Below are positions 6,112 to 11,046 of a stretch of DNA of 64,000 nt, piece by piece. How positions within the stretch are numbered: the stretch's first letter is position 1; each line of letters starts with the position of its first letter. The translations under genes were made by a program, and so were the position numbers. Origin of the DNA: Methylotenera sp. (GTDB lineage: Bacteria > Pseudomonadota > Gammaproteobacteria > Burkholderiales > Methylophilaceae); NCBI GenBank assembly GCA_013141495.1, contig JABFQV010000008.1, forward strand, positions 1 through 64,000, given 5' to 3'. The notes beneath the pieces are model-generated. The model made no database searches. It was not told the origin of the DNA and saw only the letters and a program-made list of their open reading frames with translations.

Positions 6112-7380
6112 TTAGCCTTTAATGGCACGGTAGCCAATGTCGGTACGGAATTGTGCGCCGTTGAATTTGATTTCTTTTGTTATTTTATAGGCTTGCTGTT
6201 GCGCAAATTTTACTGTTTCACCCAAGGCTGTTACGCAAAGTACACGGCCGCCACTGGTGACTACTTTGCCATCTTTTAGCGTTGTGCCGGCGTGAAATAC
6301 ATGCGCATCTACTAAGTTTTTAGGCAAGCCTGTAATTTCATCACCTAACTTTGGCGTTTCTGGGTAATTAGCAGATGCCATTACCACGCCTAATGCAAAA
6401 CGTCTATCCCACTCAGCCTCAGCACGGTCTAGTGTGCCATTGACTGCATGTTCCATCAGCGCGACTAAATCACTTTTTAAACGCATCATAATTGGCTGCG
6501 TTTCTGGGTCACCCATGCGGCAGTTAAACTCTAACGTTTTGACATTGCCATTTGGGCTGATCATTAAGCCTGCATATAAAAAGCCTGTGTATGGAATGCC
6601 ATCTTTTGCCATGCCTTCAACCGTAGGTTTGATAATTTCGCGCATGACTTTTGCGTGAATTTCAGGCGTAACCACTGGTGCGGGTGAGTAAGCGCCCATG
6701 CCACCGGTGTTGGGGCCAAGGTCCGCGTCTAATAAGCGTTTGTGATCCTGACTTGTGGCAAGGGCTAAGATATTTTTGCCATCCACCATCACCATAAAGC
6801 TCGCTTCTTCACCTTGCAAAAACTCTTCAATCACAACACGTGCGCCGGCCGCACCTAGTTTGTTATCTTCGAGCATGGCGTCGATTGCAGCGTGGGCTTC
6901 GTCATCTCTCATGGCAACCACCACACCTTTGCCAGCGGCCAAGCCATCCGCTTTAATCACAATCGGCGCACCTTGCTGGCTCACATAATCATGCGCCAGT
7001 TTGGCGTCAGTAAAAGTGGCATAAGCCGCAGTGGGGATGTTGTGGCGCACCATAAAGGCTTTGGCAAAATCTTTGCTAGATTCCAATTGCGCAGCGGCTT
7101 GGGTGGGGCCGAAAATCTTGAGGCCTGCCGCGCGAAAGGCATCGACCACACCCTGAGATAGCGGTGCTTCAGGGCCGACAATGGTGAGATGAATTTTTTC
7201 ATCCTGCGCAAACTTTACTAAATCAGCCACCGCAGTAATCGGCACATTCATCATATCTGGGTTAATTGCAGTGCCAGCATTGCCAGGCGCCACATAGACG
7301 CGGCTGACTTCTTTATTGTGGGTGACTTTCCACGCGAGCGCATGTTCACGACCGCCACTGCCGATGACTAATATTTTCAT
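6112..7380 (-). CDS. purD: Phosphoribosylamine-glycine ligase
   Basis: MKILVIGSGGREHALAWK, PGNAGTA, VVIEEFLQGEEASFMVMVDG; SD-like GGAGGGG upstream of ATG at 7380. Confidence 0.97.
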   Translation of the reverse strand: MKILVIGSGGREHALAWKVTHNKEVSRVYVAPGNAGTAINPDMMNVPITAVADLVKFAQDEKIHLTIVGPEAPLSQGVVDAFRAAGLKIFGPTQAAAQLESSKDFAKAFMVRHNIPTAAYATFTDAKLAHDYVSQQGAPIVIKADGLAAGKGVVVAMRDDEAHAAIDAMLEDNKLGAAGARVVIEEFLQGEEASFMVMVDGKNILALATSQDHKRLLDADLGPNTGGMGAYSPAPVVTPEIHAKVMREIIKPTVEGMAKDGIPYTGFLYAGLMISPNGNVKTLEFNCRMGDPETQPIMMRLKSDLVALMEHAVNGTLDRAEAEWDRRFALGVVMASANYPETPKLGDEITGLPKNLVDAHVFHAGTTLKDGKVVTSGGRVLCVTALGETVKFAQQQAYKITKEIKFNGAQFRTDIGYRAIKG

Positions 7381-7427
7381 TACCACCCCTCCATCAGGAG
7401 CTATTTTTTTAATTAAGATTGTGGCGA

Positions 7428-8012
7428 TTAACTCAATAATTCTTTGAGATAGATTTTTTCGCCATTTGAAATTTCACGCTTATATGCTTTATCTGGTGCT
7501 GTTTTAGTCAATTTTTCTGGTTTGGCTACTGTTGTTGTTTTATTTAATGATGTTGGTTTCCCGCCCCATAAAACAATGTAACGCTCATCTGTAATCATTA
7601 ATTTCAGTGCGTGAAACTCTTCAATAAGAGCGATAGCATAATGTACAAATTGACGTGTGCTTTTGAATTGATTGGCGTAGCCAGTTGGGTTGTTAGATTT
7701 TAAATCAATATAAATTACAGTGAGTTTGTCATTGCGAACTAAAAAAATTACGTTATCACAAGCGCAATGATGTCCATGCTTGGCATTGCTGTTATCACTG
7801 ACGGCTAGCAATGGAGACATTTTTGCTAACTTACCACGCCCTTTATCTGGGTTTATTGAAATCCAATCTCCATTAGGAGTGGTTAAAGTAACTTTTCTGA
7901 GCTTGGCTGACACATCAGTTTCTTCAATTAAAATGTGAGCATGTTGGTCGCCGCGATAAGTTACACAAGAAAGAGACTCCCTCAGCTTGTCTATCTTAGC
8001 TGACAGCATCAA
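7428..8012 (-). CDS. Uncharacterised protein, partner of the adjacent ATPase; possible PD-(D/E)xK-like core
   Basis: ORF overlaps the ATPase gene by 4 nt (8009-8012); segment CDNVIFLVRNDKLTVIYIDLKSNNPTGYANQF has D-x(16)-DxK spacing. Confidence 0.75.
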   Translation of the reverse strand: MMLSAKIDKLRESLSCVTYRGDQHAHILIEETDVSAKLRKVTLTTPNGDWISINPDKGRGKLAKMSPLLAVSDNSNAKHGHHCACDNVIFLVRNDKLTVIYIDLKSNNPTGYANQFKSTRQFVHYAIALIEEFHALKLMITDERYIVLWGGKPTSLNKTTTVAKPEKLTKTAPDKAYKREISNGEKIYLKELLS

Positions 8013-9418
8013 AGCTCACCGCCATATAGAATGTCATTCTGAATGGAGTTCATATCTTCAATCGTGGTGTCGAAAGTGATTACTTCTATACCTATATCAG
8101 CTTGTATTTTTGCAGGTATCAAGGTGTTTATTTTGGTGGCTTTTGTTTCACCTGAAGCAGGTTTTGTTATGACTCCAGTGGTATAAAGTCGAACACGCTC
8201 AGGACTAAGTAACTCTTCATCATCGTATTTGTAACGTGTTTGCATCGCTTGAGTATGATCGGTTTTTTGCGCCAACATAATAAGCGTGTTGAACTCTTTA
8301 ACTAAGTAGTCACTATGTGTAGTTACAAAAACTTTAATGCCAGCATTGACCATACGCGCGACAAGCCTTGCTAATGCACGTTGGTTTTTAGGGTGTAAAT
8401 TGAGTTCTGGTTCGTCGATAATAAACACATCACCAGATTTTGCCTTACAGCGCAGATAAAAACCAATATCGAGTAACGCACGCACACAACTTGATGATTC
8501 GCCCATTGAGAAGCTTGGTTTTCCGTTACCCCTTGGCTTGTAAACAAGACCTCTGTCTTTTATTACTTTGTAACTCCCACCAATAAGCCCGTCAAAAGAG
8601 GTTAGGAGCGCTGGATTTTCAATAGCTAGCTCACCTATGTCTTTATCGAAGTCCTCTAGTTGACGAATGAAGTCCACGTTATCACGCACTGGCCAAGCAT
8701 AGCTATCAGAACCAGCTTGCATGCGTTGGTGGAGTAAAAACGGATTTTTTTGCAACTCCTTCGCGTCCAGCGTTCTAAGCGCTTCAACCATTCCCGTGCG
8801 AGCAAAATCTAATTCTTTGAGAAAAATTGCCGCTCCAGTACGTTCAGCACTAGCAATAAAGGTGTTGGGCAGGTAGGGAGAGAAAACAATTTCTGCGATT
8901 GCATCGCTAAGAAATTCTGATAAAGCCCAAATATCCAAGCCATCATCTGCTATAAGAACTTTAAGTAAGTCGCTATCTTTTTCCTTACTTATCGTAGCCA
9001 AAACTTTACCATCTGACCCACTTTTGATAGGGCGCTCAAAAGCTCTTTGCGTGAAGTCAATACTTTCTGAAACAGTCACTTTAATCTGAGCATTCTCAAA
9101 GTAAACTGGGTCGGCTGCAAAAACATCTGGCAATTGCTTTACGTATCGTTTACTAACTGCTTCGAGGTACGTATTCAATTTCCCAGAAAAAATTTCCTTT
9201 AAATCGAATTGATAAGTCTGTTCTTTTGCAGAGTCAGCTGCCTTAATCAGTGATATTAGTTCGGTACGTAAAAGTCTGCGCCAACTGCGTAAAAAACCAT
9301 ACACAGCGTATGTGGCATAAGTTTTACCAGTGTTATTCTCACCACAGATAATAGTTAAGTCAGCGAGTTCTAACTCAGCCTCATCCAGTAGCCCAAGCTT
9401 TTCAAATTTGAATTTCAT
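8009..9418 (-). CDS. AAA/ABC-type ATPase (AAA_15/OLD-like family)
   Basis: Walker A GENNTGKT, signature-like SMGESSS, Walker B VFIIDEPELNLHP, TTHSDYL H-loop; ATG at 9418 with GGAGTGAG upstream. Confidence 0.88.
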   Translation of the reverse strand: MKFKFEKLGLLDEAELELADLTIICGENNTGKTYATYAVYGFLRSWRRLLRTELISLIKAADSAKEQTYQFDLKEIFSGKLNTYLEAVSKRYVKQLPDVFAADPVYFENAQIKVTVSESIDFTQRAFERPIKSGSDGKVLATISKEKDSDLLKVLIADDGLDIWALSEFLSDAIAEIVFSPYLPNTFIASAERTGAAIFLKELDFARTGMVEALRTLDAKELQKNPFLLHQRMQAGSDSYAWPVRDNVDFIRQLEDFDKDIGELAIENPALLTSFDGLIGGSYKVIKDRGLVYKPRGNGKPSFSMGESSSCVRALLDIGFYLRCKAKSGDVFIIDEPELNLHPKNQRALARLVARMVNAGIKVFVTTHSDYLVKEFNTLIMLAQKTDHTQAMQTRYKYDDEELLSPERVRLYTTGVITKPASGETKATKINTLIPAKIQADIGIEVITFDTTIEDMNSIQNDILYGGEL

Positions 9419-9438
9419 TCTCACTCCAACCCTTTAAT

Positions 9439-11046
9439 TTAATGCCTGAAATGCCTAATTCCAGTCACGACCATCACTAAGCCATGCTCATCTGCTGCGG
9501 CAATCACTTCTTCATCGCGCATGCTGCCACCTGGGTGAATCACGCAGCTTGCGCCAGCAGCTGCAAGTGCGTCAATACCATCGCGGAAGGGGAAGAATGC
9601 GTCAGATGCGACCACTGAACTTTGCAAACTTAAACCTGCATTTTGCGCTTTAATAATGGCAATTTTAGTGCTGTCTATACGGCTCATTTGGCCTGCGCCT
9701 ACGCCTAGCGTCATTTCGTTACCGCAGAATACAATCGCGTTTGATTTCACATATTTTGCTACGCGCCACGCAAACAGCATGTCGGTCATTTGTTGTGGCG
9801 TTGGCTGTTTTTTGCTGATAATTTTGAGGTCAGTTTGGCTAACTTCATGGTTGTCTGCGGTTTGAATCAACAAGCCTGAGCCTACTCGTTTGGTTTCATG
9901 CGCGTTGCGCCCTTGCTCCCACGCCGTAGCTCCGCCTGCTGGCAATGCGATTTTGAGTACGCGCACATTGGCTTTAGCGGCAAAAATAGCCAATGCCTCT
10001 GCCGTGTAATCGGGTGCGATCAGCACTTCAACAAATTGCTTGCTCACAGCTTCAGCTGCAGCTTTATCAACGGTTGTGTTGAAAGCGATAATGCCGCCAA
10101 AAGCGCTACTTGGATCTGTTTGGAAGGCTTTTGAATACGCGTCTAAAGCGGTTGCGCCGAGCGCTACGCCACATGGGTTAGCATGCTTCACAATTACACA
10201 AGCCGTTGTGTCAAAACTCTTAACGGCTTCCCAAGCAGCATCGCCATCGGCAATATTGTTGAAGCTTAATTCTTTGCCTTGTAATTGCTCTGCGGTGACT
10301 AGTGAGCCGGGTGCTGGGTGAAGGTCGCGATAGAATGCCGCTTGTTGATGTGGGTTTTCGCCATAGCGCAAATCTTGAACTTTGATAAAGTTTGTGTTGC
10401 TTTGCGCAGGAAACTGTAAAGACACCGGCTTGCTACTAGCCATACTGGCAGTGTAATCAATGGCAGATAGATAATTACTAATCGCCGCATCGTATTGCGA
10501 TACACGGTTGAAAGCAGCAACAGAAAGCGCAAAAGTCGTCGCTTCTGCAAGTGCGCCACCAGTACTTTGTAGTTCGCTAATCACTGCGGCATATTGGCTG
10601 GCATCGGTCAGCACGGCCACGTCTTTCCAGTTTTTGGCAGCTGAGCGCACCATGGCCGGGCCGCCAATGTCGATATTTTCAATCGCGTCTTCTAGCGTAC
10701 AGTCCAGGTTTGCTACAGTCGCTTCAAACGGGTATAAATTGACGACCACCATGTCGATATTAGGAATGCCTTGCGCTTGCATAGCCGCTACGTGTTCAGG
10801 TAAATCACGGCGACCCAAAATCCCGCCATGGACTTTTGGGTGTAAGGTTTTAACGCGACCGTCTAGCATTTCAGGAAATCCCGTGTAGTCACTGACTTCA
10901 ATGACGGGGATGTTGTTGTCGCGAAATAATTTAGCGGTGCCGCCGGTTGATAAAATTTCAACGCCTAAATTGCTGATATTTTTTGCAAAGTCGATAATAC
11001 CGGTTTTGTCAGAAACGCTGATAAGCGCACGTTTAATAGTTGCCAT
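9439..11046 (-). CDS. purH: Bifunctional AICAR transformylase/IMP cyclohydrolase
   Basis: [19 protein letters not shown]-type start, [31 protein letters not shown]. Confidence 0.97.

Follow-up and report, generated by a model that had tools for sequence, protein, structure and literature searches.

PD-T4-4 is an anti-phage system reported to have been discovered experimentally in Escherichia coli, within an element resembling an integrative and conjugative element (ICE) (Vassallo et al. 2022, PMC9519451). WonAB, from the WASA-1 prophage of Vibrio cholerae, is described as a two-gene operon encoding an OLD/ABC-type ATPase and a small PD-(D/E)xK nuclease; protection is reported to require both genes, the ATPase motifs of WonA and the catalytic lysine of WonB, with WonB being toxic only together with WonA (PMC12137116). 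Under WonAB, according to the same report, phage DNA replication begins, capsids are largely not produced and translation is shut down, so that the system is presented as acting by abortive infection; its authors call PD-T4-4 similar in organization and treat it as distinct (PMC12137116). The pair of genes considered here, A and B, lies between purH and purD in a 64,000 nt stretch of Methylotenera sp. DNA (GenBank assembly GCA_013141495.1, contig JABFQV010000008.1, positions 1 to 64,000 of the forward strand; hereafter the window). Judged from its sequence, the pair is a member of the already named anti-phage system PD-T4-4; it is a recent horizontal acquisition, and it occupies a junction at which different defence systems are found in relatives.

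A and B are co-directional open reading frames (ORFs) of the minus strand, at 8009–9424 and 7428–8012 respectively, in the gene order dusB, fis, purH, A, B, purD, hemF, apeB. For A, the ATG at 9418, which stands behind a GGAGTG-like site (469 aa), is preferred over the GTG at 9424 (471 aa). For B, the ATG at 8009–8007 is the start of choice. With these starts, the features are as follows.

9439–11046, minus strand: purH, upstream flank
9419–9438, minus strand: purH–A junction, with the GGAGTG-like ribosome-binding site of A and no terminator match
8009–9418, minus strand: A, PD-T4-4 component A by PADLOC, Pfam and conserved ATPase motifs; OLD/ABC-type AAA_15 ATPase, 469 aa
7428–8009, minus strand: B, PD-T4-4 component B by PADLOC and by residues invariant in 15 relatives; putative PD-(D/E)xK nuclease, 193 aa
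7381–7427, minus strand: B–purD junction, with a GGAGG-type ribosome-binding site of purD
6112–7386, minus strand: purD, downstream flank

A first-pass annotation of the window had placed two genes of the same strand between purH and purD, with gaps of about 20 and 50 nt, and this arrangement is confirmed: 20 nt separate purH from A (14 nt with the GTG start), and B ends 47 nt from the ATG of purD. The 4 nt overlap and the 194 aa length given for B hold if B starts at the TTG at 8012; with the better ATG start, the stop of A and the start of B overlap as TGATG by 1 nt and B is 193 aa long. The insert consists of A and B alone, with nothing else coded. Neither is a chance ORF, as A matches AAA_15 in Pfam (3.5e-20) and both proteins align with defence models over the full length. 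A promoter/terminator scan, in which the number of sites was not above the shuffle expectation, showed nothing terminator-like from purH to purD on the strand of the operon. Co-transcription of A and B with the operon is thus plausible, in agreement with the earlier suggestion that their placement would allow them to be read with it.

Identity as PD-T4-4 is indicated for both genes by PADLOC. A matches model PDLC04033 at 4.4e-185 (614 bits, residues 3–469 of 471) and B matches PDLC04034 at 4.8e-85 over residues 1–193, with three other B models matching too. The likeness to the family (PDLC04032–04037) extends to both components at full length, identical gene order and overlapping genes. Additionally, a pair that E. 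coli carries beside guaA, within an ICE-like element, matches the same two models and is 61 % (A) and 58 % (B) identical to the present pair. Plasmids, a P2-like prophage of E. coli W and other genomes hold further PD-T4-4 pairs. Whereas the known pairs reside in an ICE, a prophage or a plasmid, the present one is chromosomal, within a housekeeping operon and in an insert without an integrase, which adds a chromosomal, operon-embedded setting to those of PD-T4-4. The proposal of an anti-phage defence module is therefore well supported by the family models, while that of an unnamed system is not, given that the PADLOC check supplies the name. Likewise, B had been described as a partner not recognizable as TOPRIM/DUF4435 or HNH. 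This stands, and B has no match in Pfam or NCBIfam; however, it belongs to an already known defence family (PD-T4-4_B).

One of the PD-T4-4 pairs, on Serratia marcescens plasmid P2 (NZ_OW849157.1, L045:9294–10588), has an ATPase shortened to 233 aa and an intact B. The shortened ATPase matches only residues 229–471 of A and appears to be an A that has been broken or split. A recombinase/cupin block flanks this pair on both sides, in inverted orientation.

The motifs of both proteins quoted in the first pass are present, and A is an OLD/AAA_15-type ATPase as proposed there. Its Walker A (GENNTGKT), SxSS signature region, Walker B (IIDEPE) and H-loop (THSDY) are kept in 10 relatives. Across 15 relatives of B, with identity down to 16 %, residues E30, D55, C84, D85 and K104 do not vary, and D or E always stands at position 102. 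Invariance of this set, E30...D55...CD85...(D/E)xK104, supports the suggested PD-(D/E)xK nature of B. Published AlphaFold3 models of PD-T4-4_B are also reported to mark PD-(D/E)xK residues (PMC12137116).

Taken together, it is very probable that A and B form a PD-T4-4 pair acquired as a bare cassette and transcribable with its operon, in which an ATPase sensor would license a nuclease with an abortive outcome. The two-gene cassette entered the purH–purD junction horizontally and could there be transcribed with the dusB-fis-purH-purD-hemF operon. A would most likely dimerize as an ABC/OLD-type ATPase, bind B and keep it idle. Having sensed some consequence of infection, A in its ATP-bound or ATP-hydrolysing state would license B, a PD-(D/E)xK-type nuclease, to cleave nucleic acid and thereby halt phage production. 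A sensor that licenses a nuclease and ends in abortive infection is the best reading because WonAB, the nearest studied relative considered, behaves in this way, the likeness between the two pairs being one of published description. By this analogy, abortive infection would be expected of A and B rather than restriction at entry. Several results weigh against the proposed scheme: a sequence search of the PDB returned no relative of B, an AlphaFold2 model of B alone from its single sequence reached a predicted local distance difference test (pLDDT) score of 34, and A also scores highly against a component of another PADLOC system, PDC-M47A (2.6e-149).

The scheme leaves room for different targets of B. 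With A as the sensor, B could be an abortive effector that uses a PD-(D/E)xK-like core on RNA or the translation machinery and not on DNA, comparable to a WonB-like translation arrest. This is a serious if tentative possibility, to which the small size of B and its lack of a recognizable DNA-binding domain lend weight. However, the PD-(D/E)xK core occurs mostly in deoxyribonucleases.

Recent acquisition of the pair, horizontal as the first-pass annotation had implied, follows from its absence in relatives, its lower GC content and an empty junction in the nearest relative. B was not found in 100 relatives and A was not found in 60, each set including at least 36 congeners. The GC content of the insert is 0.397, versus 0.486 for purH and 0.492 for purD. 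In the closest relative, G016 (G and L numbers are working handles for genomes and loci), the purH–purD junction is 108 nt long and holds no gene. The distribution of the system is sporadic and mobile: at the level of the class, the PD-T4-4 B model matches 4 of 369 genomes, the source genome itself and two marginal matches among them. Relatives of B were found neither among phage records nor in a scan of genome contigs, and no convincing direct or inverted repeats, as would be left by transposition, are present at the ends of the insert.

The location had been regarded as a curiosity of one genome, a view that does not survive comparison: relatives carry different defence systems at purH–purD, and do so recurrently. 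The junction was resolved in 49 congeners, the source genome included. Most of these junctions measure 10–200 nt; approximately 43 are without a coding insert, and six contain one.

Source genome: PD-T4-4
G001 (L049:6442–8273): PDC-M38A/B, an AAA_15 ATPase and a DUF3226 protein (4.3e-142 and 5.1e-68)
G039 (L050:2568–4902): type II restriction-modification (R-M) pair
G038 (L103:1–1962 and the end of L104): type II R-M pair over a contig break, flanked on both sides
G047 (L022:3109–3447): ORF6N gene, PADLOC PDC-S05
G011: 149 aa protein of unknown kind

Insert GC content is also low in G001 (0.356) and G039 (0.364). Between G038 and G039, the R-M genes share 77–78 % nucleotide identity and are as alike as the core genes (76–77 %); the two inserts may thus descend from a single old event. 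Elsewhere in the family, a junction longer than 300 nt was seen, from coordinates, only in G945 (L118) and G875 (L119), both of which hold ORF6N. Of the purH–purD ORF6N genes in G047, G875 and G945, one is truncated and the G945 copy is frameshifted. In total, 12 ORF6N loci were found in 187 genomes of the family, with 3 at purH–purD, in three genera. A back-of-envelope chance expectation (12 loci × 1/2000 junctions) is 0.006 versus the 3 observed, although shared ancestry may reduce the number of events.

In a sample of 143 genomes of the order outside the family, purH and purD are adjacent in 102, with a median gap of 70 nt. One of these junctions carries further defence genes.

G989 (L139): HEC-01A/B (AAA_21 ATPase and DUF4276) and a type IIG R-M gene

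Nine other genomes of the order have a PagP-like gene there (confirmed by Pfam in one and by resemblance in the others), one has a GNAT-like gene and another a DUF4160/DUF2442 pair. All of the named inserted genes run in the direction of the operon, and no integrase was seen within the purH–purD inserts. The comparison also covered three other junctions of the same operon: dusB-fis-purH had no long insert in 51 cases, purD–hemF had only Sua5/YrdC-type genes or short gaps, and hemF–apeB had one 145 aa ORF.

Since PagP-like, GNAT-like and DUF4160/DUF2442 genes also occur there, the purH–purD slot takes accessory genes in general and, repeatedly, defence genes; in different genomes the two genes enclose PD-T4-4, PDC-M38, type II R-M, HEC-01 with IIG R-M, and ORF6N/PDC-S05. 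It is probably a defence slot embedded in an operon. Defence hotspots flanked by core genes are known, such as cDHS1 and cDHS2 of Pseudomonas aeruginosa (PMC10250203), and prophage and ICE hotspots have likewise been reported (PMC9519451). The purH–purD junction resembles cDHS1 and cDHS2 in its core-gene flanks and in the turnover of different defence systems; however, the cDHS loci often span tens of kb, lie near tRNA/tmRNA genes and are mostly occupied, whereas the purH–purD slot is 2–5 kb, within an operon and mostly empty. No literature on purH–purD as a defence site was found in a search that was incomplete and is accordingly weak evidence of novelty.

A somewhat favoured reading is that, across the order, purH–purD is a small slot without an integrase, into which different defence cassettes and ORF6N enter repeatedly and co-directionally, using the purine-biosynthesis promoter in place of a promoter of their own and probably spreading by homologous recombination via the flanking core genes. 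That the junction is not preferred, and that a few unrelated accidental insertions stood out because they were looked for, is rather unlikely. The predominance of congeneric junctions without a coding insert agrees with accident, as do the many genomes of the order in which this position is empty or holds just a PagP-like or GNAT gene. However, multi-gene defence cassettes of four kinds occur five times at this one junction, all co-directional, ORF6N reached it in three genera (a quarter of the loci counted above), and the other sampled junctions of the operon are without a defence insert. The recurrent slot, rather than the system itself, which is already named, is the part worth following. 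If purH–purD is a true defence slot, then looking at this single junction in many genomes would be an inexpensive route to new defence genes, and the locus would show cleanly how defence cassettes move with neither an integrase nor a promoter of their own. The site also permits asking whether a housekeeping promoter can be used by defence genes with no harm to the promoter.

Since A also scores strongly against PDC-M47A, assignment of the pair to PD-T4-4 leans largely on B. It is highly improbable that A and B are instead a PDC-M47-type candidate system, as B matches PDC-M47B at only 9.4e-4, the PD-T4-4 models fit both proteins better (B by approximately 80 orders of magnitude) and a genuine PDC-M47 pair on an Annamia plasmid (L048) ranks the two model sets in the opposite order. 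The marginal fit of B to PDC-M47B together with this reversed ranking makes the assignment to PD-T4-4 clear. PARIS, Gabija, Septu, AbiL and OLD share the AAA_15/OLD-type ATPase, and A matches AriA (2.1e-22), GajA (2.6e-12), AbiLi (1.4e-12) and PtuA (8e-10), but these scores are far under those for PD-T4-4. The partners expected of PARIS, Gabija and Septu (DUF4435/TOPRIM, a UvrD-like helicase with TOPRIM on the ATPase, or HNH) were not found, and the PADLOC matches of B are confined to PD-T4-4_B and M47B.

Elsewhere in the operon, a Sua5/YrdC-family gene stands between purD and hemF in G010 (L077), G038 (L103:3315–3854), G875 (L119) and G887 (L121), with none there in the source genome. HemF of G039 (L050:160–1206) has an in-frame insertion of about 40 aa (KSDVISPQHLQSKQGGKDENAQ...) that is not in HemF of the source genome. 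A palindrome, TTGARRTCACAANTTGTGAYTTCAA, was considered as a landing site, being present in 2 of 52 congeners and in both at purH–purD; yet it encodes the LKSQxVTS motif of ORF6N and is for that reason more simply explained as a piece or remnant of an ORF6N gene. In G022, the palindrome encoding LKSQxVTS persists in intergenic purH–purD DNA.
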